A stretch of DNA of 64,000 bases. Origin: Alphaproteobacteria bacterium LSUCC0396 (GTDB taxonomy: Bacteria > Pseudomonadota > Alphaproteobacteria > Puniceispirillales > Puniceispirillaceae). The notes beneath the pieces were generated by a model. It ran no database searches. It saw only the letters and a program-made list of their open reading frames with translations, and was not told where the DNA came from. Below are positions 1,242-19,974 of the stretch, in pieces; the stretch's first letter is position 1; each line of letters begins with the position of its first letter. The stretch lies in NCBI GenBank assembly GCA_041228345.1, contig CP166131.1:62001-126000 (forward strand). Direction: 5' to 3'. Made by a program: the position numbers and the translations under genes.

Positions 1242-1381
1242 TGGCTAAGAAGATGGTGATCTAGCAGCATAGCGTCAAGATGGCACCGCTCATTACGGTG
1301 CAGATTGCTGTTCGCCTTATGATGGTTTCGAGCCTATAAGGGGGGAACGGAACCGATAGAGCGGAGAGGGATTTCGGGGTA

Positions 1382-1717: not shown

Positions 1718-2100
1718 ACGGTTGAAATCCGCGCCGTTTTAGTGGCGTCGCTAAGCGGTTCTGATGTGCCATGCCCCCATATCGGATTTGGCCATGCAGC
1801 GTCGTCAGTATGGCGTGCCACGATATGAAAATGCAGTTGCGGTACCATATTGCCAATAGCCGCACTATTGATTTTGCTGGCATCACAATGTTGCTTTAGC
1901 GCCTTGCCGAGCATTCGCGCCAGTTTCCACAAGGATTGAGCGGTTTTTTCATCAAGATCATGCAGCTCGGTTGCGCTGACTTCTGGCACGATCATCAGCC
2001 AGAAAAACCGCGAATCATTTACCAGCCGTATTTGCAATGACCCCACCCGCGCCACAAGAAACGTGTCTTTGGCAAGGGTGGGGTGCAGGGTAAATGACAT
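1696..2100 (-). CDS. HIT family (histidine triad) nucleotide-binding protein
   Basis: This 134-residue HIT-superfamily protein is likely to hydrolyse or bind a nucleotide (Ap4A- or AMP-conjugate type). The triad region reads QLHFHIVAR at about residues 88-96, so the first histidine of the classic HxHxH is glutamine while the two following histidines, including the expected nucleophile, are kept. The subsequent WPNPIWG block is typical of the proteobacterial subgroup with this Q variant. The reading frame is open further upstream, but the ATG at 2100 gives the family length and the longer frame would run into the neighbouring dehydrogenase gene. The precise substrate is unknown. Confidence 0.85.
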   Translation of the reverse strand: MSFTLHPTLAKDTFLVARVGSLQIRLVNDSRFFWLMIVPEVSATELHDLDEKTAQSLWKLARMLGKALKQHCDASKINSAAIGNMVPQLHFHIVARHTDDAAWPNPIWGHGTSEPLSDATKTARISTVQSWLGK

Positions 2101-2110
2101 TTTAGCTGGG

Positions 2111-3187
2111 TTATCCGGCAACAATTTTGGCGATGCCGGTGCCACAAGTAACAGTGTCGGCCTTGCCACCAAGGTCGCCCGTGCGCAGGTCTGGCGTTGA
2201 AAGTGCACTATCAATTGCATCAGTGATACACTTAGCAGCCTCGGCATAACCTAGATGTTCAAGCATCATTGCGCCCGCCCAGATTTGCCCAACCGGATTT
2301 GCAATGCCTTTGCCAGCAATGTCTGGTGCAGAGCCATGTACAGGTTCAAACAGCGATGGAAACAGCCGTTCAGGGTTGATATTGCCCGATGGTGCAACGC
2401 CGATCGTGCCGGTACAGGCAGGGCCAAGATCGGACAGGATATCGCCAAACAGGTTTGACGCCACAACAACGTCAAACCAGTCAGGGTGAAGAACGAAATT
2501 GGCTGTCAGGATGTCGATATGGTATTTATCCCAGCTGATATCGGGATAGGATTTTGCCACCGCTTGAACGCGCTCATCCCAATAGGGCATAGTGATCGAG
2601 ATACCATTTGATTTTGTTGCCGATGTCAGATGCTTGCGCGGGCGGCTTTGCGCCAATTCAAAGGCGAATTTCAGCACCCGATCAACGCCAATCCGCGTCA
2701 TCACGCTTTGCTGGGTAACAAACTCACGGTCGGTATCCGGGAACATGCGCCCGCCAACTGATGAATATTCGCCTTCGGTGTTTTCACGAACAATCATCAT
2801 ATCAACATCGCCCGGCCCACGATTTGCCAGCGGTGACGGCACGCCCGGCAGCAGTTTTACCGGCCGTAAATTGACATATTGATCGAATTCGCGCCGGAAT
2901 AGGATCAGCGATCCCCATAGCGAAATATGGTCGGGAATGCCATCAGGCCAACCAACGGCACCAAAATAAATGGCATCATGCTTGCCGATTTGGGTTTTCC
3001 AGTCATCCGGCATCATCTGCCCATGCTTGGCATAATAGTCATAGCTCGCAAAGTCGAAATGGTCGAAATGCAGGTTGATATCAAACCGGTCCATTGCGGC
3101 CTGTATCACGCGCAGCCCCTCGGGAATAACTTCTTTTCCAATCCCGTCACCGGGAATGACCGCAATATTCAGTCTGTTTTTCGACAT
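2111..3187 (-). CDS. Tartrate / D-malate dehydrogenase (isocitrate/isopropylmalate dehydrogenase family)
   Basis: This 358-residue NAD(P)-dependent oxidative decarboxylase belongs to the isopropylmalate/isocitrate dehydrogenase superfamily. The N-terminus has IPGDGIGKEV, the substrate-binding RENTEGEYSS stretch lies around residue 135, the metal-binding aspartates lie in NLFGDILSDLG, and the adenine-binding HGSAPDIAGKGIANP follows. The sequence around the RENTEGEYS loop and the long N-terminal tyrosine-rich region fit tartrate dehydrogenase/D-malate dehydrogenase (TtuC/DmlA) better than LeuB. The ATG at 3187 is preceded by GGAGACAG. It lies 10 bases upstream of the HIT gene on the same strand. 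Likely role: tartrate, D-malate or related 2-hydroxy acid catabolism in the cytosol. Confidence 0.88.
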   Translation of the reverse strand: MSKNRLNIAVIPGDGIGKEVIPEGLRVIQAAMDRFDINLHFDHFDFASYDYYAKHGQMMPDDWKTQIGKHDAIYFGAVGWPDGIPDHISLWGSLILFRREFDQYVNLRPVKLLPGVPSPLANRGPGDVDMMIVRENTEGEYSSVGGRMFPDTDREFVTQQSVMTRIGVDRVLKFAFELAQSRPRKHLTSATKSNGISITMPYWDERVQAVAKSYPDISWDKYHIDILTANFVLHPDWFDVVVASNLFGDILSDLGPACTGTIGVAPSGNINPERLFPSLFEPVHGSAPDIAGKGIANPVGQIWAGAMMLEHLGYAEAAKCITDAIDSALSTPDLRTGDLGGKADTVTCGTGIAKIVAG

Positions 3188-3295
3188 TTCTGTCTCCGTT
3201 TGTTTCAGTGGGGCCGATAACCGACGAGGGCATAGAATGGTCGTTTGCACACCGCTCTACAAGGTGTTTTTGGTGGGTTTTTACGTCTCTAATGG

Positions 3296-4339
3296 CTAGA
3301 ACGGCATCGGAAAACGGCGATAGGTGGCGGCGATATCATCCAAGACTTCAGCCGTCAGCGTCAAATCTACAGCGCCTAAGGCCTCGCCGAGCTGGTCAAG
3401 GTCAGTGGCACCAAAAATGGCCGAAGTCATGAAGGGCCGTTGCATCGCCCATGCTAGCGCCATCTGGCTCGGTTTTAGCCGATGTTTTGCGGCAATCCCC
3501 ATATAGGCATCAAGTGCCGGCCATAATCCATCGCAAATTCGCCCGCCAAGATTGGCAACATGGCTTCGCCTCGACCCCTCAGGCGTTACATCACCGTTAT
3601 ATTTGCCGGTCAATAATCCAGCGGCAAGTGGTGAGAATGCCAGCAATCCGACCTTTTCGTGATGTGCAACCTCTGCCATATCAAGGTCAAAATGGCGGCA
3701 AAGCAGGCTATATTCATTCTGCACGCTGACCATACGGGGAAGGCCGTGGGTGGCGGCAATCGCCAGCCAGCGCATTGTTCCCCATGCGCTTTCATTCGAC
3801 AGGCCGACATGACGGATCTTGCCTGCACTCCGGCATTTTTCGAGATGATGCAGAACTTCGCTCATGTGATCTAATGTCTCATCGCTGGGTTGAGCGCTTG
3901 CATCAAAGTTCCAGTTTTGTCGAAACATATAGGATCCGCGATTCGGCCAATGTAGTTGATAAAGGTCGATATAATCAGTCTTTAAGGCACGAAGTGAGGC
4001 CTCAAGCGCCAGATCAATTGTTGCAGGCGAAATGGGGGCACCATCGCGAACATTCATATAGCCTTTGCCAGATACTTTTGTTGCCAGAATAATATCCTGG
4101 CGGCGGCCCGACTGGCCGATCCAGTCACCTAAAATACGTTCAGTATCGCCTTGGGTTTCCTTGGCAAGCGGATTGACCGGATACATCTCCGCTGTATCAA
4201 TGAAGTTAACGCCATGATCAAGCGCCATATCAATTTGCGCATGGGCTTCAACGGAGGTGTTTTGGCTGCCCCATGTCATCGAGCCTAGGCAAAGCGCGCT
4301 AACCGATATATCAGTGCGGCCAAGTTTATTATACTGCAT
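3296..4339 (-). CDS. tas: Tas-like NADP(H)-dependent aldo/keto reductase
   Basis: This 347-residue aldo/keto reductase is very close in length and layout to E. coli Tas: MQYNKLG start, the SMTWGSQN block, D/Y catalytic positions in NFIDTAEMYPV, Lys in ATKVSG, His in LYQLHWP, and the SVQNEYSLL and LLAFSPLAAGLLTGKY segments. The family reduces carbonyls with NADPH; the natural substrate of Tas is unknown. The ATG at 4339 was chosen over the in-frame start 42 bases upstream because it follows a GGGGG Shine-Dalgarno and matches the Tas N-terminus. About 110 bases separate it from the dehydrogenase downstream. Confidence 0.88.
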   Translation of the reverse strand: MQYNKLGRTDISVSALCLGSMTWGSQNTSVEAHAQIDMALDHGVNFIDTAEMYPVNPLAKETQGDTERILGDWIGQSGRRQDIILATKVSGKGYMNVRDGAPISPATIDLALEASLRALKTDYIDLYQLHWPNRGSYMFRQNWNFDASAQPSDETLDHMSEVLHHLEKCRSAGKIRHVGLSNESAWGTMRWLAIAATHGLPRMVSVQNEYSLLCRHFDLDMAEVAHHEKVGLLAFSPLAAGLLTGKYNGDVTPEGSRRSHVANLGGRICDGLWPALDAYMGIAAKHRLKPSQMALAWAMQRPFMTSAIFGATDLDQLGEALGAVDLTLTAEVLDDIAATYRRFPMPF

Positions 4340-4482
4340 GAACCCCCCATGGCTCCATCTCGGAAATGACAAAATGGTCAAATTGATGATTTGATTTCAG
4401 GTTTCTCTATAACTATCCAAAAAGGCGGTGGAATGCCAAGCAAATCTAACTATACTAGGCCAATTTCGTCGGGGTCGATTTT

Positions 4483-5823
4483 ATGCGTATTGCGGTTATT
4501 GGTTCGGGTATTTCCGGCTTGGCGTCAGCCTTTCTTTTGAACAGCATTGGTGATGTTTACCTTTTTGAAAAGGCCGCGCGTCTTGGCGGGCATAGCAACA
4601 CTGTCGATGCCGTGTTTGACGATGTCGCGGTGCCAGTTGATACTGGCTTTATCGTTTACAACCCTCTGAATTATCCTAACCTGATTCAGCTTTTCGACCT
4701 TTTGTCAGTGCCTAATCAAGCGACAGATATGTCGTTTTCAGTGTCGCTTGGTGGCGGGCAGATGGAATATGAAGGGTCGGTCAAGGGTTTGCTTGCACAG
4801 CCTGAAAACCTGCTGAAAAAGCGTTATTGGTCGATGCTGTCCGATCTAGTTCGGTTTTATAAAACGGCACAGCGTCAGGCAGATCAGGGGCCGCGTTACG
4901 AAACTTTGGGCCAGTTTGTCGCGCGCCTCGGCTATGGATCAGCCTTTGTCGATGACCATCTGGTGCCGATGGGCGCCGCCATTTGGTCGGCGACGTCACA
5001 TTCGATGATGGAGTTTCCGGTGCGCTCTTTCATGCGCTTTATGGAAAACCATAAATTGCTCAATTTTATCGACCGGCCACAATGGCGCACGGTCAAAGGC
5101 GGTTCACGCGAATATGTTCAGCGCATTGCAGACAAGCTGGATAAGCGGGTTCACTGCGAGGTCGATATTATTGGCTTACGCCGCACCAATGCTGGTGTTA
5201 TGGTGAATATAAGAGGGCAGGGGGAGATATGGTTCGACAAGGTCATTATGGCAGCCCATGCCGATCAGTCGCTGGCGTTAATGGGTGACGCAACACCGCT
5301 TGAGCGTGAAATTCTTGGGGCGTTTGCGTTTCAGAATAATCATGCGGTGCTGCATTCTGATGCGTCACTTATGCCGAAACGTCGCGGCGCGTGGGCTGCG
5401 TGGAACTATGTCTCGGAGGGGCCGTTAAGTCCGGCAGGTGGGAATGAAGCTAGCCCAAAATCAGCCGCCAGTGATTTGTGTCTAACCTATTGGATGAACC
5501 GTTTGCAATCGATCGATCTAGCCTATCCGCTATATGAAACTTTAAATCCGGTGCGTATGCCTGACCCGGCATTGACGCATGGCAGTTTTGACTATCGCCA
5601 CCCAATTTTTGATGCCGCAGCGATTGCGGCGCAACCACGCCTTGGTGAAATTCAGGGGCAAAACGGACTGTTCTTTGCAGGTGCATGGACTGGATATGGT
5701 TTCCATGAGGATGGGTTGAAATCGGCTGTTGCCATCGCGCAAACATTAGGTGCTGATATTCCGTGGAAAACCGGTGTTAAACCCTATTGCAAAAATGGTG
5801 ACACGGCGCTGGATACTGCCTGA
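4483..5823 (+). CDS. FAD-dependent amine-oxidase-like oxidoreductase
   Basis: This 446-residue flavoprotein has an N-terminal Rossmann dinucleotide-binding motif (VIGSGISG, residues 5-12), the LGGHSNT segment of the amine oxidase/protoporphyrinogen oxidase superfamily, and a C-terminal FAD-binding FAGAWTGYGFHEDGLKSA block near residues 394-410. Together with the next two genes it forms the conserved set FAD oxidoreductase-DUF1365-cyclopropane-fatty-acid-synthase-like methyltransferase. In Rhodobacter and other proteobacteria related sets belong to singlet-oxygen or light-stress regulons and are linked to fatty-acid modification; that role is inferred here. The stop overlaps the next ATG (ATGA). 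Confidence 0.85.
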   Translation: MRIAVIGSGISGLASAFLLNSIGDVYLFEKAARLGGHSNTVDAVFDDVAVPVDTGFIVYNPLNYPNLIQLFDLLSVPNQATDMSFSVSLGGGQMEYEGSVKGLLAQPENLLKKRYWSMLSDLVRFYKTAQRQADQGPRYETLGQFVARLGYGSAFVDDHLVPMGAAIWSATSHSMMEFPVRSFMRFMENHKLLNFIDRPQWRTVKGGSREYVQRIADKLDKRVHCEVDIIGLRRTNAGVMVNIRGQGEIWFDKVIMAAHADQSLALMGDATPLEREILGAFAFQNNHAVLHSDASLMPKRRGAWAAWNYVSEGPLSPAGGNEASPKSAASDLCLTYWMNRLQSIDLAYPLYETLNPVRMPDPALTHGSFDYRHPIFDAAAIAAQPRLGEIQGQNGLFFAGAWTGYGFHEDGLKSAVAIAQTLGADIPWKTGVKPYCKNGDTALDTA

Positions 5824-6635
5824 TGACGGCTCTCAACGCGGCTTGCGATATTGTGGTCTCGGACATTGTTCATACGCGGCATGGCGGTGATCATCATCCT
5901 GCATCGCATGTTTTACGCCGATCTGGCTTGTCGATATTGATTGATCTTGATCATCTGGCTGAAGCCAATCGTCAAAGCCTGTTTTTTTCAGTCGACAGCT
6001 TTAATCTTCTTGGGTTTCAACAGCGCGATCATGGGCCAAATTTCAAATCCAAAGCGCCGCTTGTGCCGCTGGGTGATTATGTGCGCCAAATTGCGGCTGA
6101 GCTGATTCCTGAAAAAAGCGTCAAAACTGCACATTTACTAACATTTCCGCGAATTCTTGGCGCCGGTTTTAATCCGCTCTCGGTCTATGTTGCGCGCGAT
6201 GCTGCAGGCTGTGATCTGCTGTATATCTATGAGGTGCGCAATACATTTGGGGATATGCACGCCTATATTGGAACGCCGTCATTGAGGTCTGCGACATTAG
6301 AGGCTGAAAAGATTTTCCATGTTTCGCCATTTTTTCCGGTTGAGGGGCGCTATCGGCTGCGAGTAAGGCTTGATAATGGTGTGGTCAGGCTGGCCATGCG
6401 TTATTTGATTGCTGATCGGCCAGCATTGACGGCAACTATGCGTGGCACGCGTATCAAGCTGGCGACCCGCAGCCTGTTCCATAGTTTGTTTGCGGCTAGG
6501 CAATTTCCCTTTCGGCCGATAATTTCAATCCATTTTGAAGCCTTGAAATTATGGCTAAAAAAGGTACCGTTTTACCCACGACCGGTTCCGCCGCCCCGTT
6601 GGTCGCGCGCAAAAGATTTTGATGAGGCAAATTAA
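5823..6635 (+). CDS. DUF1365 family protein
   Basis: This 270-residue DUF1365 protein has an early VVSDIVHTRHGG motif (RH/H residues conserved in the family), LIDLDHL, FGPNFKS-like and GFNPLSVYVARD segments, and a YEVRNTFGDMHAY block. The biochemical activity is not established. It almost always sits between a flavin oxidoreductase and a CFA-synthase-like methyltransferase, as here, so an acyl-chain-modifying role is the usual inference. The start overlaps the upstream stop and only 3 bases separate it from the next gene, indicating one transcript. Confidence 0.88.
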   Translation: MTALNAACDIVVSDIVHTRHGGDHHPASHVLRRSGLSILIDLDHLAEANRQSLFFSVDSFNLLGFQQRDHGPNFKSKAPLVPLGDYVRQIAAELIPEKSVKTAHLLTFPRILGAGFNPLSVYVARDAAGCDLLYIYEVRNTFGDMHAYIGTPSLRSATLEAEKIFHVSPFFPVEGRYRLRVRLDNGVVRLAMRYLIADRPALTATMRGTRIKLATRSLFHSLFAARQFPFRPIISIHFEALKLWLKKVPFYPRPVPPPRWSRAKDFDEAN

Positions 6636-6638
6636 GTA

Positions 6639-7829
6639 ATGGTTTCTAGGTTTTTGCGGCAGCATCAAAATAGCCTGCTTTTCAGTATTTTGGATAATTT
6701 ACAAAGTGGTGAGGTTTTGCTGACCATGCCCGATGGTGTGCAAAAGCGTTTTGCTGGCCCGACGGCGGGGCCTAAGGCGGATCTTACAATTCACAGCCAA
6801 GATGCGGTGTACCGTATTCTAAGCGACGGCAAAATGGGCTTTTGCGAGGCGTTTATGGATGGGCTGGTCAGTTCTGAGAGCCTGCCGCAATTGATTGAGT
6901 TGGCAGCGCGCCATGATGCTTATTTTGAAGAGCGGCTGAAAACCAACCTGTTACGAAAATGGGGGTTACGCCTGTTTCATCAATTGCGCCGAAATAGCAA
7001 GAGCGGGTCGGCCAAGAACATCGCGCACCATTATGACCTCGGCAACAGCTTTTATCAGGCATGGCTGGACCCAACCATGACCTATTCCTCGGCGGTTTTT
7101 GATTCGGATGATGATGACCTGACAAAGGCACAATTGAACAAATATAAGCGCCTTGCCGAACTTGCCGATATTCAGCCAGGTGATCGGGTTCTGGAAATTG
7201 GCTGTGGCTGGGGCGGTTTTGCCAAATATGTGACCAGCGAAATTGGTGCGAGCGTGACGGGTATCACCATTTCAAAAGAACAGTTTACCTATGCCAATAA
7301 CGTTATTCACGAAGCTGGACTTGAGGATAAGGTGGATTTACGGTTGATGGATTACCGTGATTTGCAAGGCCACTTTGATAAAATCGTATCAATTGAAATG
7401 TTTGAGGCTGTTGGTAAAGATTATTGGCCGACCTATTTTGAGATCATGTCCAAGGTTTTGAGAAAAGGGGGGCGTGCGGTGATCCAGTCGATCACCATTG
7501 ATCATGCTGCCTATCATTCTTACGAAAACCAGCCTGATTTTATCCAGCGCTATATTTTTCCCGGTGGTATGCTGCCGTCATTACCGATGCTGGAAAAGCC
7601 GCTAGCTGAAGCCGGATTGCATCTGGTAAGTGAGCACGGTTATGCCAGTCATTATGCGCGCACGCTTGATCAGTGGCGGCAAAGGTTTAACGCCGCGTGG
7701 CCGCAATTTGCTGAACCGCAGTTTGATCATCGTTTCAAGCGGATGTGGGACCTGTATCTAGCCTATTGTGAGGGCGGATTTCGCGCCGGCATGATCGATG
7801 TTAAACAAATGCTTTTGATGCATAAATAA
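6639..7829 (+). CDS. cfa: Cyclopropane-fatty-acyl-phospholipid synthase family methyltransferase
   Basis: This 396-residue SAM-dependent methyltransferase has the CFA-family signature HYDLGNSFYQAWLDPTMTYS at residues 131-150, the SAM motif LEIGCGWGGFA at 185-195, an SIEMFEAVG stretch and a QRYIFPGG block near residue 306. The family transfers a methylene or methyl group from SAM onto double bonds of membrane phospholipid acyl chains at the cytoplasmic membrane surface. The neighbouring FAD oxidoreductase and DUF1365 genes suggest a modified product (methylated or further oxidised acyl chain) rather than plain cyclopropanation, but this cannot be told from sequence alone. It is the last gene of a three-gene operon. 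Confidence 0.92.
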   Translation: MVSRFLRQHQNSLLFSILDNLQSGEVLLTMPDGVQKRFAGPTAGPKADLTIHSQDAVYRILSDGKMGFCEAFMDGLVSSESLPQLIELAARHDAYFEERLKTNLLRKWGLRLFHQLRRNSKSGSAKNIAHHYDLGNSFYQAWLDPTMTYSSAVFDSDDDDLTKAQLNKYKRLAELADIQPGDRVLEIGCGWGGFAKYVTSEIGASVTGITISKEQFTYANNVIHEAGLEDKVDLRLMDYRDLQGHFDKIVSIEMFEAVGKDYWPTYFEIMSKVLRKGGRAVIQSITIDHAAYHSYENQPDFIQRYIFPGGMLPSLPMLEKPLAEAGLHLVSEHGYASHYARTLDQWRQRFNAAWPQFAEPQFDHRFKRMWDLYLAYCEGGFRAGMIDVKQMLLMHK

Positions 7830-7889
7830 CCCAAAAAGCATACCGATATGGGCGCACAAGGGTGTGGGCGCATCTATTCATCGCGCCTT

Positions 7890-8333
7890 TTACGCTGATT
7901 TTAGCCGAAACAGCTTTAGAATCGGCCGGATGAGTGCGCCAATGAACGGCAAAAATCGCAGCAACTGGCTGGCGCTATCCCAATGGTCAATATGTTTGCA
8001 AATTTTCCCATCAAGATCGACATGAACCTCGGTCATGCCTTCAAATAAAAGGTTGGTATGGGGCCAGCTCTTTAATTTGCCAGTCATCCGCCACCGAAGA
8101 TAGCTGGCGGTTTTAGAATGTGCGACATCGCTGACCGTAAAGCGCGGGTCAATGCAGGTTTCATACATATGATCAAAAACCCGGCGAAAGCCAGCTTTGC
8201 CATGAATTACATTGAACGGATCGGCGAAAAACACATCCTCGGCAACAAGTTCATATAGCGTTTCAACATTGTCCGGGGTGAGCGCAGTAAAGGCTGTTAC
8301 GTAAGCGTCAACGTGAAGCGTCTTTTTAGCCAT
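7890..8333 (-). CDS. NTF2-like (SnoaL-type) fold protein
   Basis: This 147-residue protein has the NTF2-like pattern: an N-terminal helix pair, LYELVAEDVFFADPFNVIHGKAG, then beta strands ending in FEGMTEVHVDLDGKICKHIDHWD. A hydrophobic C-terminal tail (LRFLPFIGALIRPILKLF) follows, unusual for a soluble NTF2 domain and possibly a membrane contact. Homologues accompany the FAD oxidoreductase/DUF1365/CFA cluster in other proteobacteria. Here it converges on the CFA gene and lies 38 bases downstream of the dehydrogenase gene on the same strand. The enzymatic role is unknown. Confidence 0.75.
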   Translation of the reverse strand: MAKKTLHVDAYVTAFTALTPDNVETLYELVAEDVFFADPFNVIHGKAGFRRVFDHMYETCIDPRFTVSDVAHSKTASYLRWRMTGKLKSWPHTNLLFEGMTEVHVDLDGKICKHIDHWDSASQLLRFLPFIGALIRPILKLFRLKSA

Positions 8334-8371
8334 GAAAAATCCTCAATATCGTGATGGTGACAATCAAATGA

Positions 8372-9115
8372 TTAAAACGCTCCAGTCTGTTTTCCGACAA
8401 GACGGAAAAATAGCCGGTCAGGCAAAAATCGTAAAAGTCCCATTTTGCGAGTGAATGATTTTGGAAAGTTTATGGAAAAATCATTAGTTTTCATGCCATT
8501 GATAATTTCAATGGCAGCGGTGTCGCAGCTAATTAGGTCGGGCATCTCGAAATCATTAACTGCGGTGGCCTCACTTTCTACGAACCCCGGGCAAATAATC
8601 TGCAATTTAATACCATAGGGAAATAGATCGAAATACAACGACTCTGCCAGTGATATCAGGGCGGCTTTGGTGGGGCCATATGCGGCCGATTTCGGTAAGC
8701 CTCGCCAACCGGCGACTGAAGATACAATTGCAATGTGGCCCTGGCCAGCACTGACCATGTCCGGCACCAGTGCCGCCAAAGCATTGACCACGCCAAGGTA
8801 ATTGATCCGCATATGATGCTCATAGACCGCCGGATCAATCTTCGTGCCATCTTGTGGCTGATAGATGCCGGCATTCAAAATAGCCACGTCAATCGGGCCT
8901 GAATTGGACTTGGCGTTGGTGATTGCCGCCATGAGTGCTGCTGGATCACCAACATCAGCTATAAAGCCCTGAAATCTTTCATCCCGCTGCGACAGCTCTT
9001 TGAGGCGTTGCTGGCGTCGGGCTATACCACTGACTTGATGACCTTTAGCCGATATTTTTTTTGAGAGCGCAGCTCCGATACCAGATGAAGAGCCTGTGAT
9101 TAAGTAATGTGCCAT
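8372..9115 (-). CDS. Short-chain dehydrogenase/reductase (SDR)
   Basis: This 247-residue classical SDR has the TGSSSGIG cofactor motif (7-14), NAG at 81-83, catalytic Ser around 132-133, and Tyr146/Lys150 in YGPTK. The C-terminal third ends with a hydrophobic LLRFLPDRLFFRLVG segment that may contact membrane or lipid. The substrate is unknown; linkage to the CFA-type cluster suggests a lipid or acyl substrate. Only 6 bases separate it from the stop of tonB upstream on the same strand and no strong Shine-Dalgarno is visible, so it is probably now read from the B12-cassette transcript or from a promoter inside tonB. Confidence 0.88.
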   Translation of the reverse strand: MAHYLITGSSSGIGAALSKKISAKGHQVSGIARRQQRLKELSQRDERFQGFIADVGDPAALMAAITNAKSNSGPIDVAILNAGIYQPQDGTKIDPAVYEHHMRINYLGVVNALAALVPDMVSAGQGHIAIVSSVAGWRGLPKSAAYGPTKAALISLAESLYFDLFPYGIKLQIICPGFVESEATAVNDFEMPDLISCDTAAIEIINGMKTNDFSINFPKSFTRKMGLLRFLPDRLFFRLVGKQTGAF

Positions 9116-9121
9116 TGTTAT

Positions 9122-10255
9122 TTAACTACTACTTCTTAATTTCACGGGAAAATTGGCAAAATCTAACTCTAAACCGACTGGTGCAGAGGGAAATCTGCCA
9201 GATGCTTCAATCGCCCGAACTAAATTTTCAACGGATGTGTCGGTCTCAGATGCTCCGATAATCTCAATGCTCAAAATTTCTCCAGTATTGCTTATTTTGA
9301 AGCTAATTTTTACGTCATGAGTCAATTTTATTTTCAGAGTTCGTTCCACAATATCATTTCGGACTGCCGTCGCCCAATTTTTGAGTAGCTTTTTTTTGCG
9401 AGCTGACTCCGCTTTAGGATTAGAAAAGTTAGATTGAGCAGTACCAAGTTGATTATTTGTGATTAAATTTGACTTCTTTTCATGCGCTCGTGTTTTTGGT
9501 GCGTCTTTTAGAAGTTCAGACATGCCAGTTTTTTTGTTACTTATTGAATGTAAATTGTCCGGGGCTTCAGTTCTGAAGATTTTAGATTGAATTTCTTTTC
9601 CATCCGGTTCCACGGCGAACTTTTTATCCAGTTTCAAGTCAATCTGGTCTGTTGGTGGTTGCCACTCACTTGCTTTAACCGAATGAAGGAGAGGGGGGGC
9701 TGGCGTTTTAAATCGAATTGATGACTTTGAGTTGGGAACAGCTCCATCGTTTATGGTGATTTTATCTCTACGCTCTGTTTTTTTAAAACTTAGATTGCTG
9801 GAGCTGTAATTTTTTATAGCTATCTTTTGACTAGAGTGTTCTCCAGGCGACTCCTGTTTTGCGACCACTAAAGGCTTTGGCTTTGGCTTGGGGATCGTTT
9901 TTAGCTTATTCACTGAAATAGTTTTTGATAAAGCTCCGGTCTCAGACATAAATCTGGACTGATAACTGATTGTTTCATTGGAAATAATGTCGGTTTTTGG
10001 GGCAGTTTTGGGAGTTGTTTTTGGAGCTGTCTCAGCATTGTCTTTGGGTAATTCTTTTTTTGGCAACTCAGGCGTTTCTGGCTGGTAAACAACGAATTCG
10101 ATCGCTTTGAAGCCATTATTTTCATCCCTGATCTTGGCTTTATAAGCTTCGTTAAAGCCTATTAGTATGGATGCATGAATCAAAATTGATATTAGCCAGC
10201 TAGGTGATTTTATAGAAATAAGTTTCTGATTTGTTATGGAAATTTTTTTCAACAT
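9122..10255 (-). CDS. tonB: TonB family energy transducer
   Basis: This 377-residue protein has one N-terminal membrane helix (about residues 19-35) carrying the S-x3-H pair (S23, H27) conserved in TonB for interaction with ExbB/ExbD. A long Pro/Lys/Thr-rich periplasmic spacer with repeated PKTxPKT and PKPKPKP runs follows, then a C-terminal TonB domain (about 290-377) with VKISFKISNTGEILSIEI and FPSAP. It would deliver proton-motive energy to the BtuB-like receptor of the same cassette. No exbB/exbD genes are in the window, so these must come from elsewhere. The start overlaps the stop of the ABC ATPase gene. Base composition is clearly AT-rich. Confidence 0.88.
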   Translation of the reverse strand: MLKKISITNQKLISIKSPSWLISILIHASILIGFNEAYKAKIRDENNGFKAIEFVVYQPETPELPKKELPKDNAETAPKTTPKTAPKTDIISNETISYQSRFMSETGALSKTISVNKLKTIPKPKPKPLVVAKQESPGEHSSQKIAIKNYSSSNLSFKKTERRDKITINDGAVPNSKSSIRFKTPAPPLLHSVKASEWQPPTDQIDLKLDKKFAVEPDGKEIQSKIFRTEAPDNLHSISNKKTGMSELLKDAPKTRAHEKKSNLITNNQLGTAQSNFSNPKAESARKKKLLKNWATAVRNDIVERTLKIKLTHDVKISFKISNTGEILSIEIIGASETDTSVENLVRAIEASGRFPSAPVGLELDFANFPVKLRSSS

Positions 10256-10959
10256 AAGAAAATTTCCTTGTAATACTCTCCGCTTAATAATTGCTTTGGC
10301 GAGCCATCCGCCACAACTTTGCCAGCTTTGACTCCTACAAAGCGGGAAAAGTAATTTTGCGCAAGGTCAATATCATGTAGTGAGGCAATTATAGTTAGGC
10401 CAGTTTCAGATAGTTCCTTCATAAGCGAAAGCACGGACACTTTTTGAATAGGATCAAGGCTGGCTAGCGGTTCATCCAAAAATATTGTCGATGTTTGTTG
10501 AATAAGCGCCCGAGCAATAAGCACGGAAGTTAATTCGCCACCTGATAGGGAGCTTATTTTTCTGGTCCCCAATTTCAGCGTATTTGTTGCTAATAGTGCA
10601 TCCTTGATTGTAAAGCGCATTGCTCTTGGTGAGCCTGAACTTAGGTCATTACGGTCTCTAAAACTTTGTAAAGTAAAACTCAGCAACGTTTCAACGCTAA
10701 CATCCCAAACAATTTCACGCGTTTGTGGCACCCAAGCGGCCAGCCGCGCTCGGCCTTCAAAGCCTTGTGATGAAATATTGGATATTCCATGGTGTGGGAT
10801 AAGCCCTATAATTGCTTTCATTAGCGTTGATTTACCAGCCCCATTCAAGCCAACAATCCCTACGGCTTCGCCCACATTCACGACGAGGGAGGTGGGCTTA
10901 ACGAGCTGTGCCCCATTTATCGTCACGCTAAGATTCGAGGTTTCGATAGCGTAAGTCAT
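10249..10959 (-). CDS. btuD: Cobalamin/Fe-siderophore-type ABC transporter ATPase (BtuD-like)
   Basis: This 236-residue ABC ATPase has Walker A GLNGAGKST (37-45), Q-loop Q79, signature LSGGE (138-142), Walker B TIFLDEPLASLD (158-169) and a downstream H-loop (IASLHDIDLA). It belongs to the FecE/BtuD group that powers import of cobalamin or ferric siderophores. The assignment to vitamin B12 rests on the riboswitch and the adjacent btuB/F/C-like genes rather than on residues of the ATPase itself. It begins one base after the permease stop. Confidence 0.88.
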   Translation of the reverse strand: MTYAIETSNLSVTINGAQLVKPTSLVVNVGEAVGIVGLNGAGKSTLMKAIIGLIPHHGISNISSQGFEGRARLAAWVPQTREIVWDVSVETLLSFTLQSFRDRNDLSSGSPRAMRFTIKDALLATNTLKLGTRKISSLSGGELTSVLIARALIQQTSTIFLDEPLASLDPIQKVSVLSLMKELSETGLTIIASLHDIDLAQNYFSRFVGVKAGKVVADGSPKQLLSGEYYKEIFLC

Positions 10960-10960
10960 C

Positions 10961-11947
10961 TTAACCCCTCTGTTTGCTTACTAAATAGAGAAAAAACGGC
11001 GTTCCTAAAAGCGCAGTCAGCACGCCAAGTTTTATTTCACTGGCAGTCGGCAACAAACGAATGCTTATGTCGGATAAAAGCACCAGCAGGGCGGCGATCG
11101 GTGGCGTCCAGATTAGTGTCTTTCCAGGCTCATGCTCAACGAATGGCCGGACAATGTGCGGTGTCACTAGTCCCACAAAGCCAACAATTCCAACCACAGA
11201 CGTAATAGAGCCCACAGTTAGCGCTGTACCGATCAGGGTGTCACGTCGCAATTTTGGAATGTTGACGCCAGTAGAAGCGGCAGTTTCTTCCCCTAATGTC
11301 ATTAGATTAAGACTGTTAGCATTACGTAGCAAAAATAATGAGCCTAGTATCACTAATGGCGTCGACATAATAACATGAGAATAAGATACATCGGTAACCG
11401 ACCCAAGCATCCAGAAAACAATTTCATTAATAGCAAAGGGGTTTTCTGAAAGGCTGAGTATCAGAGTGGTAAAAGCGCCAGATAGAGACGAAATTCCAAT
11501 GCCTATAAGGATGACGCTATGTTTGTTCGAGGCATTGTTAGTCAGCCTTAGAAGAGCCCACGATGCAATGGCAGCAAAACTGAGAGAAAAGGCCGGTGTG
11601 TAATAAAAACCCAAAGCACTAAAGCCGAGTCCAATTGAGAAAACGGCACCAAGTGCGGCGGCAGAACTAATGCCAACAACACTTGGCTCAGCAAGCGGGT
11701 TGCGAAGAAAGCCTTGCAGACAAGCGCCGGCAATTCCAAGTCCAAAGCCAACAATCAGACACATCAAGGTCCGTGGCATGCGAAGGTCCCAAAGAATGAT
11801 GGAATCAGGGCTGCTAATGCCATAAAGCGGTGATGAAATCGCAGAAAAAAAATCAATTTCTACATGCCCAATTTGGAGTGAGGCATATGATCCAATGGCT
11901 AAAAGGATTACGACAATGCTTCCCAATTTTGCCTGATCAAGTAGCAT
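10961..11947 (-). CDS. btuC: Cobalamin-type ABC transporter permease (BtuC/FecCD family)
   Basis: This FecCD-family permease of 328 residues has about ten hydrophobic helices. Family blocks are visible: LWDLRMPRTLMCLIVGFGLG, the GACLQGFLRNPLAEPSVVGIS motif in the N-terminal third, and GIVGFVGLVTPHIVRP, which forms the ATPase-coupling region. The ATG at 11947 is preferred to a TTG 15 bases upstream. It overlaps the substrate-binding protein gene by 11 bases. With BtuD and BtuF it forms a cytoplasmic-membrane importer, probably for cobalamin given the riboswitch. Confidence 0.88.
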   Translation of the reverse strand: MLLDQAKLGSIVVILLAIGSYASLQIGHVEIDFFSAISSPLYGISSPDSIILWDLRMPRTLMCLIVGFGLGIAGACLQGFLRNPLAEPSVVGISSAAALGAVFSIGLGFSALGFYYTPAFSLSFAAIASWALLRLTNNASNKHSVILIGIGISSLSGAFTTLILSLSENPFAINEIVFWMLGSVTDVSYSHVIMSTPLVILGSLFLLRNANSLNLMTLGEETAASTGVNIPKLRRDTLIGTALTVGSITSVVGIVGFVGLVTPHIVRPFVEHEPGKTLIWTPPIAALLVLLSDISIRLLPTASEIKLGVLTALLGTPFFLYLVSKQRG

Positions 11948-12803
11948 TGTTTTTACCCACAAGCTTAATGTATTCGCGGTTCAATCTAATTATCAGATCA
12001 ACCACCTTGGTTGTGCCACACGACCAGTCCTTAGTTTCAATGAAAAGCGCTTTGGACTTGCCTTTACCTTTCATTAAAGCCGGATGATAAAGGGGGAAGC
12101 CACTTTTGTCGTTGAAGCTTTTATCACCATCCAAAATCAACACGTTAGGGGCTGATTTCACCAACGCTTCTGCGGATATGTAGCGCCCTTCTTCATGACC
12201 AAGAAATTTAGAATAGCTACTAAATCCAGATCGATTAATTATATCTGAAATCAGTGAATTATTTCCATGAACATATCTATTAGTTGAGTATTGTAGTGCA
12301 ACTATCTGTTTTCGATAATTAAGATCGATTTTAGGGGATTTTAAAAGCTTTACCAGTTCTTGCGCTCTGCCGTCTGCATTTAATAACCTTCCTAATATTT
12401 GAATATTCTTTTCGATATCATTAATCGACCTTGCAAAGTCGATGAGTCGTACCTCAACTCCAAGTTTTTCAAGAGCAAATTTTGTTTTTACTGATGAAAA
12501 ATTTGAAGCTAAGACCAATGATGGTCTCAGTGCGTAAATTGCCTCTGCATTGAAGGTAACTTTATGTAAATCACTAACTTGATGACTGATGTGCGAGTAA
12601 CGAGTGTCATCCGCAAGAGCGGATACAGCAATTAAGTTTTTTGTGCCGATAAGCGCCACAACTAGCGAGTCTATGCAGATGTTGGTTGTTATGACGCGAG
12701 CTGGTTGGTTTCCGTTTTTATCTGAGGCTGACACGACCAATGGAAAGCTGATCAAGCAAATGAAAAACAATATGTAGGTTATGTTCGATAATGATCTTAT
12801 CAT
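11937..12803 (-). CDS. btuF: Periplasmic cobalamin/siderophore-binding protein (BtuF-like)
   Basis: This 288-residue class III periplasmic binding protein has an N-terminal signal peptide (about residues 1-26, ending LVVSAS). The ARVITTNICIDSLVVALIG start of lobe 1, the EAIYALRPSLVLAS stretch, a long connecting helix and a second lobe with ALVKSAPNVLILDGD match BtuF/FhuD-type proteins. Cobalamin as ligand is inferred from the riboswitch-led operon. It lies 7 bases downstream of the outer-membrane receptor gene and overlaps the permease gene. Confidence 0.85.
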   Translation of the reverse strand: MIRSLSNITYILFFICLISFPLVVSASDKNGNQPARVITTNICIDSLVVALIGTKNLIAVSALADDTRYSHISHQVSDLHKVTFNAEAIYALRPSLVLASNFSSVKTKFALEKLGVEVRLIDFARSINDIEKNIQILGRLLNADGRAQELVKLLKSPKIDLNYRKQIVALQYSTNRYVHGNNSLISDIINRSGFSSYSKFLGHEEGRYISAEALVKSAPNVLILDGDKSFNDKSGFPLYHPALMKGKGKSKALFIETKDWSCGTTKVVDLIIRLNREYIKLVGKNNAT

Positions 12804-12810
12804 GTTGTTC

Positions 12811-14679
12811 CTACCATCTTGAAGCAGCTGTTAGGTGGAAGGATCGCCCTGGATTGCGGTAACCCCATGTGTCTGAACTATTGCCGTCAAACAGGTTTGA
12901 TATTCCTGCACCAAACCTAATACCATTAAAATTCCAGGATGATTTCAGGCCGAAAATAGTGTAGTCGGGCATTTTTTGGGACGCGTAGTCTGTTGGATAA
13001 ATGTCACGATTTCCAGCAATATTTTTTAAGTTCAGTTCTATTATGCCGTCGTTAGCACCCCAAAAATACTGGCCTCTTATGAACAATTCGTGCCGTGGAC
13101 GGCGAACCTCTATTTCCTTATTAGCGTCTCGCGAAATAACATAGGTATAGTTTGAATGGACTGATGTTTTTTCAGATGGATATGCTTGAAACTCTAACTC
13201 CACGCCATGCCTGTTACTTTTTCCCGATAAGTTTGTTGGGAAATAGGCTGGCCAAGGCCCCGCTTTTATTTCATCGGTAAGGGTTTCTTTGAATGCTGTG
13301 ATTTTGAGTGTGCTTTTGGCTAATGAGAATCCTTGCTTCACGCCAAGGGAATAACTGAGATTCTTCTCTGGCTTTAAATTAGGGTTGCCGGTCGTGTCAT
13401 AACAAGCGGGCCCTCCGTAAATTTCACAATAACTTGGGTTTACTACGCCAGTGCCTGAGTCGAACGTTATCGTGGTGTTGTCAGATAGCGGCTTCAATGC
13501 AGCCAGTTTCCATGTTTTTGCAGTTGCGAACTGCTCACTACTTTCTGACCGATATCCCGCTTGTAGCGAGGTTGCGTCTGGAAATCGGTGTCTAAATTCA
13601 AGACCAAAAGCAATTGGCTCTCGCTTGAGGGCGGGAGCCAAATTATTTTTGTCTGTAGATTTTTCAACAATAAATGAACCACTTGTGGTTGCTTCATTCA
13701 GGCTGCCTCCCTGGAAGGATCTGTGAAGATGGTATTTCATGGTCCAGCTGGTGATATTGGCGGTCGCAGTGCGTACACCATTTTCATCTATTGAACTCTT
13801 GTATTGAGTGCTTCTGAGGCTTAGTTCATGCGACGAGCGACCACCATTAAACAACCTTTTTATGTTAAGCCCGCCGAGCATTTCGTCTCGTTTGCCGGTG
13901 TATGGTTTGTCAATTACGTAATCGAGGTGTGATTGAGGAGTATAGTCAACCCCGTCATAATCATAGGTTTCGTTGGCGATACGGAGATTGAATTTTATAT
14001 CCGTGCCGTTATCCGTTGTGCTGTTTGAACGCCATCGGAGTGTGTCTCTTTTTATGCCATCTTTGTCGCCATTTAAATACGAAGCATCGTGGCCCTGATC
14101 TTCTTCAATGCTTGCAGAAATTAGGGCTTGAGTTTTTCCAATTAAAAAGTTTTGGCTGAAATCAATAAAGTTCTGTTTGCCCGCGCTCATTTCTAAAGCT
14201 GTAAACTGTTCCCTTGATGGAGCTTTCGTTATGATGTTTATCACTCCTGATGAGGCCGATGGACCAAAGAACACGGTCTGAGGTCCCCTCATGATTTCTA
14301 TCCTCTCAACCTGTGAGGCAGAAATGCCAGAGAAGTAATATTCGTCATCCGCACCGCCGCCAGCTTCTATCCCGTCAATCAGAACTAAAATGTGGTTTCC
14401 TTCTCCTCCTCTTATTCTAACTTGGTTGGTGGCGCTGCCAGTACTGCTAACATTTAGGCCAGGTATGGCTCTCAGGAGTTGCGCAATGTTTTTATCTGTT
14501 GCTTCTACGATATCTTGTTGTGATATAATGCTGTGTGGCGTTGCGATATGCGCGGAGGAAACCGGATTATTTCCCCCAGATATTATAATATCATCAAGTT
14601 CAAATGTTTCCTGGGCGCCAGCACTGGTTGCCAACAGTGATAATACGGCTGCTGTTAGGCGTACTTTTCTTCTGTTCAT
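12811..14679 (-). CDS. btuB: TonB-dependent outer-membrane receptor (BtuB-like)
   Basis: This 622-residue TonB-dependent receptor has a signal peptide (about 1-22, cleavage after AGA). A TonB-box-like FELDDIIISG stretch is followed by a plug domain with IAQLLRAIPGLNVSS, QVRIRGGEGNHILVLIDG and IEIMRGPQTVFFGPSASSGVINIIT, then a C-terminal beta barrel ending in a terminal tryptophan (LTAASRW), as usual for outer-membrane proteins. The upstream cobalamin riboswitch and the BtuF/C/D and TonB genes downstream make vitamin B12 or another corrinoid the probable substrate. The ATG at 14679 follows GGGAG. The gene is AT-richer than the flanks. Confidence 0.9.
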   Translation of the reverse strand: MNRRKVRLTAAVLSLLATSAGAQETFELDDIIISGGNNPVSSAHIATPHSIISQQDIVEATDKNIAQLLRAIPGLNVSSTGSATNQVRIRGGEGNHILVLIDGIEAGGGADDEYYFSGISASQVERIEIMRGPQTVFFGPSASSGVINIITKAPSREQFTALEMSAGKQNFIDFSQNFLIGKTQALISASIEEDQGHDASYLNGDKDGIKRDTLRWRSNSTTDNGTDIKFNLRIANETYDYDGVDYTPQSHLDYVIDKPYTGKRDEMLGGLNIKRLFNGGRSSHELSLRSTQYKSSIDENGVRTATANITSWTMKYHLHRSFQGGSLNEATTSGSFIVEKSTDKNNLAPALKREPIAFGLEFRHRFPDATSLQAGYRSESSEQFATAKTWKLAALKPLSDNTTITFDSGTGVVNPSYCEIYGGPACYDTTGNPNLKPEKNLSYSLGVKQGFSLAKSTLKITAFKETLTDEIKAGPWPAYFPTNLSGKSNRHGVELEFQAYPSEKTSVHSNYTYVISRDANKEIEVRRPRHELFIRGQYFWGANDGIIELNLKNIAGNRDIYPTDYASQKMPDYTIFGLKSSWNFNGIRFGAGISNLFDGNSSDTWGYRNPGRSFHLTAASRW

Positions 14680-14696
14680 CTATATTCTCCCGCACT

Positions 14697-14719
14697 AATT
14701 GAGCTTTTTGAGCTCAATT
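14697..14719 (-). promoter_or_regulatory. Hairpin just upstream of the btuB ribosome-binding site (candidate expression platform)
   Basis: A perfect 9-bp inverted repeat (AATTGAGCT/AGCTCAATT, 5-base loop) ends 7 bases before the GGGAG Shine-Dalgarno of btuB. There is no T-run after it on the minus strand, so it does not look like a terminator. Its position between aptamer and start codon suggests that it takes part in riboswitch control of translation; the mechanism is inferred. Confidence 0.5.
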
Positions 14720-14799
14720 GGGTCCACGTTTCAGTTAGCACCAAAGCTAACCAATCAAAGTTGACACCATTACGGGTATGCCGCAGTCAGCTCAGCCCT

Positions 14800-14980
14800 T
14801 TGCAAAGCAACACGGTTGTCACGCTTGGCAGGTCTCCTGGCTAGCAGCTCATCACCTGGTCTTTCCTTCCCACCCCGATGGGGCAGTGGACTCACAAGAC
14901 AGGCTAACTGCTTACAGTTGCAAAGGGCAGCTCGTGTTTAAAGTCCACGATTCCCTTTTAAGTGCTTTATGCACACCAAA
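14800..14980 (-). promoter_or_regulatory. Adenosylcobalamin (B12) riboswitch aptamer
   Basis: On the minus strand the leader of btuB contains the conserved cobalamin-aptamer blocks in order: an AAAGGGAATC block near 14949-14960, the GCTGCCC...GCAACTGTAAGCAG block (14908-14931) and a near-perfect B12 box GCTAGCCAGGAGACCTGCC at 14827-14845. These are known to fold into a structure that binds adenosylcobalamin and represses the downstream gene. The edges are approximate because the outer P1 helix is imperfect by eye. Confidence 0.92.
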
Positions 14981-15602
14981 CGTAGAAACATTATTTGATT
15001 CTTGCGAATAGTCTACTTAATTTTTTTTTTAACATTTACCGATGAATACATGGAATTTTTTGAGCCGATTAATAAGGCCAGCCATTGGAACGTCAGGTTT
15101 CAATGTTTTTGTTTTAGGTTGGAAAAGCTTTTTGCTGGGCATCATGCGTTTCGCAGCGCGACTCCTTAAACCAAGTTGAAACTGTGCTGCGTCACAACAA
15201 GACGATACCATCAGCGAACTTTGTTCAAAAGAATTTGGAGTGTATTGGTTTTGTGATAGCGATCGAAGTGTCTTGTGCGCTGGGAGTGATGGTACGATGA
15301 CCCTCTTTTTCCTGTTAATGAACCTCGCAAAAATACTGTTTTACCAGTAGCTGGGGTTGTTCACTGCTGATAGCATCACATCGACAGTGATGCTCACCGG
15401 CGCGATACCGATTGGTAGTTGTTTTAGGTGAAAGCTTAATCAAATCTCGCCTGATCATCTGTTTATCACGTTTCCTACGCCCATTTATTGCTGATGGGAG
15501 ACAAATTGTTCGTTGCTGCCTTTGGCTGAGAACTGCATAATTAAATGAAGGGTGCCTGCACTTATTCGCTTTGCAGGGGGCCATTGCACAGGAGAGACAG
15601 AT
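14981..15602. other. Intergenic region between the B12 riboswitch and DUF2842 gene
   Basis: About 620 bases without a convincing gene. It should hold the promoter of the minus-strand btu operon and that of the plus-strand DUF2842 gene. A run of 11 T lies near 15018-15028. A minus-strand frame of 60 codons (15029-15211) encodes a basic, Cys-containing peptide with no recognised family; I do not call it a gene. A perfect 8-bp hairpin is at 15372-15394. Confidence 0.5.
15372..15394. repeat. Perfect 8-bp inverted repeat, 7-base loop
   Basis: AGCATCAC and GTGATGCT flank the loop ATCGACA. No T-run follows on either strand, so it is not a typical intrinsic terminator. It could be an operator or part of an untranslated RNA; nothing in the neighbourhood decides between them. 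Confidence 0.5.
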
Positions 15603-15806
15603 ATGACACGTTGGCGGCATTTGACCGTTGCAATTGGGCTTGTGCCGGCATTGACTATCTATGTCGGTTTGGTGATGCAGATTGCAGATATGGTAACCGA
15701 TATTCATATGTTTTTTGATTTTCTGTTTTATCTCATCGCGGGACTGGCATGGATACCGGCAGCCAGTAGGGTTGTCGGCTGGTTGGCGAGACATGAAAGT
15801 CATTAA
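15603..15806 (+). CDS. DUF2842-like small membrane protein
   Basis: This 67-residue protein has two hydrophobic helices (about residues 6-26 and 34-58), the second ending FYLIAGLAWIPAAS, which resembles the FYxVAGLxWxxPA pattern of DUF2842, a small membrane protein family of Alphaproteobacteria with unknown role. The ATG at 15603 follows GGAGAGACAG, a good ribosome-binding site; an in-frame start 51 bases upstream lacks one. Confidence 0.65.
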   Translation: MTRWRHLTVAIGLVPALTIYVGLVMQIADMVTDIHMFFDFLFYLIAGLAWIPAASRVVGWLARHESH

Positions 15807-15916
15807 AGCAGCAAAGTTACAGCAAGCCTGTTCAGCGACCAACATTGCGGCAGCTGGTTTCGACCCGGCTGGTTTCACCCCAGTTTTGGTGCTTTCTGGC
15901 AGTGTTGGCTTTGATC

Positions 15917-16492
15917 ATGTTTAGGCGGCGTATTACGGATTTTTTTGAGCGCGCCGCACATGCCAATAATCCTGCCGCGCCAACAGCCGAAACCAAAGCC
16001 GCGCTGGAACCTGATCAGGCGGTGTATCGCCCGCTAGGAGACGCAATTGAGACTGCCACAGAATTGATGCAACAATATGGGCTGACCGGTTGGCGGGTTA
16101 AGTTGGATCATGCGCGTCGTCGCGCTGGACAATGCGATTACAATACCAAGGTTATTTCCCTGTCGCGGCTTTACGTCCGCAATGCTGATAAAGCGCATAT
16201 CCGCGATACAATCCTGCATGAAATCGCACATGCACTTGTTGGGCCGCACCATGGGCATGATGCGGTCTGGCGTCAAAAAGCGCGTGAAATAGGCTGCACT
16301 GCCACGCGCTGTCATACGCTAAGCTTCTCTCGCGCGCGGTGGATTATGCAATGTCCAAATGGTTGTTTTTCTATAGAGCGCCACCGGCGTAAATCAGGTC
16401 TTGTTTGTGCCAAATGCAAAACTGCAGTTAGTTTTATTCCGCGAGAAGCGGCGCTGAATGGTAAGGCTGCAACATGCAGTGATGCCGAGTAG
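15917..16492 (+). CDS. SprT-like zinc metalloprotease domain protein
   Basis: This protein of about 191 residues has a SprT-like domain: LMQQYGLTGWRVKLDHARRRAG-type N-terminal strand/helix, then the zinc-binding HEIAHAL motif with a following His in GPHHGHDAVWRQKAREIGC, and a C-terminal zinc-ribbon-like part with CPNGC and CAKC. SprT/Spartan-type proteins are metalloproteases or putative proteases; the eukaryotic relatives cleave DNA-protein crosslinks. The bacterial role is unclear. The start is uncertain: ATG 15917 gives MFRRRITDF, while an upstream TTG at 15845 would add a hydrophobic segment (FWCFLAVLALIMF) that could be a membrane anchor. It is 8 bases before the oxygenase-like gene. Confidence 0.8.
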   Translation: MFRRRITDFFERAAHANNPAAPTAETKAALEPDQAVYRPLGDAIETATELMQQYGLTGWRVKLDHARRRAGQCDYNTKVISLSRLYVRNADKAHIRDTILHEIAHALVGPHHGHDAVWRQKAREIGCTATRCHTLSFSRARWIMQCPNGCFSIERHRRKSGLVCAKCKTAVSFIPREAALNGKAATCSDAE

Positions 16493-16500
16493 CGCCGCTG

Positions 16501-17317: not shown

Positions 17318-17337
17318 AAGATCGGGGGTTTTTATCC

Positions 17338-19946: not shown

Positions 19947-19974
19947 CGGTTTTCAATATCACGGCAGATAAAGT

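Follow-up and report, generated by a model that had tools for sequence, protein, structure and literature searches.

The 64,000-nucleotide window analysed here (contig CP166131.1 of Alphaproteobacteria bacterium LSUCC0396, positions 62,001 to 126,000, forward strand) carries on its minus strand, in this order, a cobalamin riboswitch, a btuB-F-C-D-tonB operon for vitamin B12 uptake, a short-chain dehydrogenase (SDR) gene and an NTF2-like gene, which meet a convergent FAD-DUF1365-CFA gene set on the plus strand. This raises the question of how the SDR and NTF2-like genes came to stand directly behind a B12 uptake operon, and whether they now answer to B12. A reading made from the sequence alone had proposed that the uptake cassette landed between an ancestral promoter and the SDR gene. 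Comparison with related genomes leads us instead to a replaceable B12-supply slot whose versions are swapped by recombination, with the SDR and NTF2-like genes now at the downstream end of the btu operon, a reading to which we assign a probability of roughly 0.65. The same slot, between the same flanks, holds alternative contents in different species; these contents have switched repeatedly on the tree; homology between the versions breaks at the SDR start codon; and the intergenic space before the SDR in the window leaves no place for a promoter. The features concerned, in window coordinates, are as follows:

4483-5823, plus strand: FAD-dependent oxidoreductase, amine-oxidase domain (Pfam), UfaD-like by resemblance only
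5823-6635, plus strand: DUF1365 protein (Pfam), UfaO-like by domain
6639-7829, plus strand: CFA-type methyltransferase, CMAS domain (Pfam), UfaM-like by resemblance only
7890-8333, minus strand: NTF2/SnoaL-like protein, open reading frame (ORF), Pfam SnoaL_2 2.7e-15
8372-9115, minus strand: SDR, Pfam adh_short 1.8e-40, codons 1-80 unusually diverged from genome G021
9116-9121, minus strand: tonB-SDR junction of 6 nt; homology with synthesis-type sisters (G021, G029) stops at 9115
9122-10255, minus strand: TonB-like protein, ORF, weak Pfam TonB_2 match (4.7e-5), its 3' end being the end of the putatively replaced segment
10249-10959, minus strand: BtuD-like ATPase, ORF, Pfam ABC_tran 2.1e-18
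10961-11962, minus strand: BtuC-like FecCD permease, ORF, Pfam FecCD 4.8e-80
11937-12803, minus strand: BtuF-like periplasmic binding protein, ORF, Pfam Peripla_BP_2 6.5e-14
12811-14679, minus strand: BtuB-like TonB-dependent receptor, ORF, Pfam plug and barrel, TIGR01779 below cut-off
14680-14809, minus strand: expression platform, whose arm CCCGTAATGG can base-pair with the Shine-Dalgarno region of btuB (GCGGGAG)
14810-14995, minus strand: cobalamin riboswitch aptamer RF00174, covariance model, 101.6 bits against a gathering threshold of 31.5, full model 1-189
15845-17940, plus strand: opposite flank of the slot (SprT-like gene, unknown gene, HPF), common to uptake and synthesis genomes

Two B12 gene sets in one slot

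The genome that carries the window (G000) is a single contig of 2.59 Mb, and the closest named relatives of its SDR are from Candidatus Puniceispirillum and SAR116 bacteria. The aptamer was the sole RF00174 match in this genome in a search with the stricter filter. A FecCD permease, an ABC ATPase and a Peripla_BP_2 protein lie together within one operon, which is the make-up of a BtuCDF-type importer; none of these importer proteins reaches a B12-specific NCBIfam cut-off. The receptor is named no more than BtuB-like, because TIGR01779, its best NCBIfam match, scores 174.6 bits against a curated cut-off of 599.7, and its B12 role is argued from the riboswitch and from the mutual exclusion with cob genes described below. 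The G+C content of the cassette (0.37-0.47 per 500 bases) is below that of most of its surroundings; composition was rejected as stand-alone proof of recent insertion, as it shows lower G+C only.

Within the genus 16 genomes were compared, 11 of which have a readable locus, some of these being cut or split by contig ends. The others (G016, G019, G020, G028, and G030) stand outside the state counts, as the SDR was not found in them; in several the contigs end in the locus. Between the SprT-like gene and the SDR, seven of the 11 genomes carry uptake genes (G000, G017, G023, G024, G025, G026, and G027) and four carry cob genes (G018, G021, G022, and G029), and none carries both. CobN was found in all four synthesis genomes and in no uptake genome; CbiC was found in three of the four (the exception, G018, is incomplete) and likewise in none of the seven. 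BtuC-like genes are present in six of the uptake genomes (G023 has a contig gap), and the synthesis genome G018 has a 35% match elsewhere. Since B12-binding proteins occur in 10 of the 11 genomes, with none found in the incomplete G027, importers appear to use B12 too.

Both versions share the far flank, composed of the SprT-like gene, the unknown gene and HPF, followed by PALP and DHDPS. The stretch from SprT to SDR lies on one contig in four uptake genomes (G000, G024, G025, and G026) and in two synthesis genomes (G021 and G029), the other five loci being split or cut, and the slot measures about 6.7 kb in G000, 23.5 kb in G021 and 22.1 kb in G029. In all four synthesis genomes cobC, hupE, cobW, and cobN lie upstream of the SDR and point away from it, with a riboswitch just downstream of cobC. 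Searches with 11 further ORFs of the G021 island identified CbiJ, CbiD, CbiC, CbiX, CbiG with a methylase domain, CobD/CbiB and a CobB/CobQ-type protein, while four more contain tetrapyrrole methylase domains; the slot content of these genomes is a cobalamin biosynthesis cluster (cobC, riboswitch, hupE, cobW, cobN, cobO, and more). No mobile-element families were found among the cassette proteins or these 11 ORFs. An MttB-family gene (trimethylamine/glycine-betaine methyltransferase type) lies at 18375-19946 of the window, the fourth gene past the B12 slot; it was also found in G021, G023, G024, and G026, and was unseen between HPF and PALP in G017, G025, and G029.

Outside the genus, hupE, cobW, and cobN lie on the SDR side in nine genomes of three other genera (G010, G014, G015, G050, G051, G053, G054, G056, and G058), in some cases with intervening genes, so that synthesis is probably the older state of the slot in this part of the family. 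Farther out in the family, in the genera g2, g6, g7, g8, g10, and g11, 25 loci were queried with cob and btu genes without a match near the SDR; several of these contigs extend less than 3 kb upstream. Genome G019, labelled as the same species as G000 (94% complete, with AlaRS and RpoB pieces 100% identical), has almost no match to window positions 1200-21000, a lack that probably stems from a variable locus having been missed in assembly or binning.

The tonB-SDR junction and the riboswitch

The ORF coordinates agree with the sequence-only reading that just 6 bases (9116-9121) separate the tonB stop from the SDR start codon and 38 bases (8334-8371) the SDR from the NTF2-like gene. Its observation that no strong Shine-Dalgarno precedes the SDR was also borne out, as the upstream sequence, ...TTAAGAAGTAGTAGTTAAATAACA-ATG, contains none at the usual distance; the NTF2-like gene has one (GAGGA). 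The earlier joints of the btu operon are, in order, a 7-nt gap, a 26-nt overlap, a 1-nt gap, and a 7-nt overlap, and, these being equally tight, the tonB-SDR joint resembles one more operon joint. In the other uptake genomes the tonB-SDR gap is 7 nt (G023 and G026), 10 nt (G025), 1 nt (G024), or 158 nt (G017 and G027). The five tight junctions are of about three kinds, those of G000, G023, and G026 being alike, that of G025 weakly like them (z 3.4 against G000) and that of G024, which leads to a TTG start, distinct. In G017 and G027 the longer gap preserves a remnant of the ancestral leader, in the form of a block that resembles the DNA before the SDR of G018 (z 22-25); five of the seven uptake genomes have no room for this leader and two retain part of it.

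In synthesis-type relatives the SDR is preceded by non-coding leader DNA, and in G000 tonB coding sequence stands in its place, the ancestral upstream DNA being absent and not displaced. A TTGACA box with a TA-type -10 is found 116-207 nt before the SDR in three of the four synthesis genomes of the genus (G018, G021, and G029; not G022), and a CTTCA[CA]A box precedes it by 55-96 nt in all four g4 and all eight usable g9 genomes. No TTGAC-type box occurs within 300 nt before the SDR in the seven uptake genomes. The CTTCA[CA]A pattern also precedes the SDR in G015, G041, and G000, falling within tonB in the last of these, and the FAD gene in G015 and G059; no promoter common to the SDR and FAD genes emerged from the few hand-chosen patterns within 300 nt upstream. 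It should be noted that both patterns were picked after inspection and are leads rather than tests. The idea of a cassette placed between an ancestral promoter and the SDR gene holds insofar as the leader has given way to tonB coding sequence with no gap for a promoter. As a simple landing it does not hold, for the cassette occupies the site of a whole cob island, the ancestral upstream region is gone too, and the slot was already a B12 locus; this picture matches none of the uptake genomes exactly, G017 and G027 keeping part of the leader after tonB.

By a simple consensus scan, no promoter-like or terminator-like site is present on the minus strand from 9759 to 8372. Transcription from upstream of the riboswitch would continue through tonB into the SDR and NTF2-like genes, and SDR translation would probably be coupled to the termination of tonB 6 nt away; from this arrangement we judge co-transcription of the pair with the btu operon to be likely. 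The explanation that competes best is that the two genes stand behind the operon by position only, being served by a promoter inside tonB or by a transcript insensitive to the riboswitch, with no effect of B12. We regard this as unlikely, if not by a wide measure. Two promoter-like sites inside tonB on the minus strand (10066-10037 and 9787-9759) would suit it, but such sites are no commoner than in shuffled sequence (17 over 4300-15400 against a shuffle mean of 18.6). The partly retained leader in the 158-nt gap of G017 and G027 would suit it as well, whereas the gap is too small for a promoter in the five other uptake genomes and the SDR of G000 is without a Shine-Dalgarno of its own.

The mode of action of the riboswitch is also compatible with an effect confined to btuB. 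The expression platform of G000 contains no run of five or more U and no terminator. An arm CCCGTNATGG between the aptamer and btuB can mask the btuB Shine-Dalgarno (CGGGAG) in G000, G023, G026, and G024, the masking being less clear in G025 and G017; runs of five U are present in the folded stretch of G025, G023, G024, and G017. The platform thus looks translational in design, and on this model the distal genes need not respond to B12. As only the ribosome-binding site of btuB would be masked, without a terminator, the SDR, which lies five genes beyond btuB, could be affected only indirectly: B12 would halt btuB translation and the distal genes would follow only via polarity or message decay. 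Because the riboswitch looks translational, control of the SDR by B12 is less certain than its predicted co-transcription with the operon, and a lowering of SDR and NTF2-like expression by plentiful B12, through polarity on the untranslated btuB message, is a possibility which we would put at somewhat under even odds.

Homology boundary and repeated switching

BLAST comparison of the window with the synthesis genome G029 gives a single match, which begins at 1389 and ends at the SDR start codon (9115). Homology with G021 likewise ends at 9115, whereas with the uptake genome G026 it continues to 9397 within tonB. Over the 110 nt 5' of the SDR, G000 has no similarity to G021 (z -0.8) and is clearly similar to G026 (z 23). 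Within the SDR gene, codons 1-80 were compared with the rest in a total of 15 pairs. Identity in the two parts was 73 and 89% for G000-G021 (divergence ratio 2.47, p 5.5e-8), 76 and 94% for G026-G029 (ratio 3.78, p 2.5e-11), and 77 and 94% for G023-G029 (ratio 3.70), against 96 and 96% for the uptake pair G023-G026; two of the three tight-junction lineages therefore have raised divergence in codons 1-80. On the other side of the slot, SprT and its neighbour are less similar in G026-G029 (83 and 79%) than in G023-G026 (96 and 93%). Clustering of the first 60 nt of the SDR by B12 version (G000-G026 80%, G000-G021 67%) was rejected as evidence, this stretch being too short and the pattern vanishing over 180 nt.

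Raised divergence in boundary genes has been reported for islands replaced by homologous recombination (PMC4033161; this and the other sources cited by PMC number were accessible in part, and statements on them apply to those parts). Such a rise is seen here in G000/G021 and in G023 and G026 against G029, is absent in G024/G022, and some controls are raised too. Shared flanks, alternative contents, the homology break and the 5' divergence of the SDR together fit replacement by homologous recombination, which we hold, on comparative sequence grounds, to be very probably the mechanism of exchange. The slot between the SprT-like gene and the SDR would hold either the cobalamin biosynthesis cluster or the riboswitch-led btuB-F-C-D-tonB operon, and the versions would pass between lineages via recombination in the flanking genes. 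In G000 one crossover probably fell within the 5' part of the SDR, as a result of which the ancestral leader would have been lost and the SDR and NTF2-like genes would have joined the end of the btu operon.

The species tree was built by a quick method from RpoB, part of a protein which we take to be RpoC, and AlaRS. At least five changes of B12 state are needed on this tree, and the same applies to a tree of the lipid-side flank genes, which groups the species alike. Close relatives differ in state: the uptake genome G000 groups with the synthesis genome G021, the uptake genomes G023 and G026 with G029, G017 and G027 with G018, and G024 with G022. The uptake version seems itself to be exchanged in pieces, as G023 and G026 are 97% identical in AlaRS and have nearly identical tonB 3' ends, with only 45% identity in BtuB and 50% in BtuF. 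It is as if the receptor part of these cassettes (L116, L138, and L117) had been swapped independently of the rest, possibly through phage pressure. The evidence on exchange of the cob genes is mixed: CobN of G029 is closer to G018 (87%, partial piece) than to G021 (83%), whereas its CobC, HupE, and CobW are nearest the closer relative G021 (67, 75, and 85%).

Several observations weigh against a slot swapped by recombination with the SDR drawn into the operon, in addition to the tonB-internal promoter-like sites and the translational-looking platform. The 5' dip in the SDR is missing in G024-G022 (ratio 1.00) and scarcely present in G017-G018 (1.22); it occurs without a tight junction in the uptake pair G017-G027 (1.95, p 7.5e-4) and in G027-G018 (2.13); and seven pairs outside the contrast have ratios of 1.08-1.63, several with p 0.01-0.04 (six synthesis-synthesis pairs at 1.08-1.55, and G012-G013 at 1.63, the state of G012 being unsettled). 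The SDR leaders of the synthesis genomes G021 and G029 are dissimilar when 110 nt are compared (z -0.3) but similar over 200 nt (z 10.5). Some forks inside groups of the trees have weak support, and one genome per species was compared, which places exchange within species outside the view.

These dips bear on an explanation that we consider rather unlikely, namely that selection on the 5' part of the SDR was relaxed or altered once the promoter had changed, or that the 5' end evolves faster in general, so that its divergence marks no recombination boundary. It would account for the milder dips in control pairs (up to 1.63) and for those in the G027 pairs, and amino-acid replacements are part of the dip (70-74% identity over the first quarter in three pairs), but third codon positions fall as well (51 against 77% and 60 against 84%) and the step in G026-G029 is sharp, from 82 to 95% near nt 240. 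Lower still we rank the view that both versions are ancient, having come down from a polymorphic ancestor and been exchanged little in recent times. The btu tree matches the species tree in joining G017 and G027 and placing G025 near them, and the closeness of three G029 cob proteins to G021 fits such descent; the five or more switches, the divergent receptor and binding protein of the sisters G023 and G026, and CobN taken alone do not. Simple insertion of the uptake operon upstream of the SDR, with cob genes lost through unrelated decay, is improbable, since apart from the lower G+C of the cassette it meets sister species with the cob island in exactly the same slot between the same two flanks, ancestral SDR upstream DNA that is absent rather than displaced in G000, and no readable locus with both gene sets.

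Known systems and the lipid gene set

The slot resembles the replacement flexible genomic islands of aquatic bacteria (PMC4033161), in which different gene sets of like role occupy the same slot between homologous flanks; the boundary genes of those islands have raised substitution. Those cases are exposed surface structures compared within species, whereas here two routes of vitamin acquisition alternate among species within a single genus, and the swap alters the upstream region of a boundary gene. SAR116 subclades without complete cobalamin synthesis but with transport have already been reported (PMC12262181), in a paper whose main text contains neither riboswitch nor btuB and, in its accessible parts, names no shared locus or exchange; B12 synthesis is reported in all genera covered by PMC8547437. 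A literature search on SAR116 B12, shared-locus B12 swaps and genes behind cobalamin riboswitches, in which subscription journals were mostly uncovered, found no description of such a swap. Other riboswitch-led btuB operons (RF00174) share the aptamer, the apparent masking of the ribosome-binding site and the uptake genes, but the operon here continues into the SDR and NTF2-like genes, for which we know of no role in B12 metabolism.

The usual company of this pair was addressed by a survey of the DNA around 54 SDR matches in 51 of 61 family genomes, window included, at an E-value limit of 1e-40 which excludes weak SDR paralogues; three extra SDR loci without lipid neighbours (G012, G014, and G018) were set aside. 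The SDR and NTF2-like genes face CFA-DUF1365-FAD in 43 of the 51 genomes, and in the remaining eight the set is cut by a nearby contig end, so that the sequence-only reading was right to count the pair with its convergent neighbours. The core RpoE-ChrR regulon of R. sphaeroides includes an SDR, a DUF1365 protein, an amine-oxidase-like flavoprotein and a CFA-like gene (PMC5507510), and furan fatty acids are made by UfaD, UfaO (DUF1365), and UfaM, RSP1087-1089 being dispensable for synthesis (PMC7380195). Amine-oxidase, DUF1365, and CMAS domains likewise stand together here, with likeness to the Ufa proteins by domain or resemblance only. That system shares with the present locus a flavoprotein, a UfaO-type DUF1365 protein, a CFA-like methylase and an SDR (RSP_1087), there in one regulon; here, in contrast, the SDR lies behind a B12 operon and is possibly not an RSP_1087 orthologue. 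Conservation of RSP_1087 is reported to be confined to Rhodobacteraceae (PMC3818230), and for this reason no orthology is claimed.

Marine food webs are shaped by the division between producers and importers of B12. If the swap is real, a single recombination event could create or revert B12 auxotrophy, a route other than slow gene decay only, and exchange of a B12 island can rewire the upstream region of a boundary gene. In its widest form, the proposal is of a genus-wide interchangeable SAR116 B12 allele that is flipped between synthesis and import by homologous recombination; with crossovers falling at the SDR start, its import version would have placed a membrane-lipid-associated pair under a riboswitch operon, apparently repeatedly, and B12 status would be linked to lipid or oxidative-stress genes in importers alone. 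This form is tentative and we lean against it as a whole.

Two further features were noted around the SDR and lipid genes of other genera. A DUF3833 gene lies between the NTF2-like and CFA genes, e.g., at L123:10754-11209 (only the G015 copy was domain-searched), and ORFs of similar size occupy this position in other genera, there being no space for one in the genus of the window. In G010 and G015 an ORF of 1,024-1,026 amino acids with APH, M23 peptidase, and class-III aminotransferase domains is divergent from the SDR and lies upstream of it, at L126:6683-9757 and L123:6375-9455.

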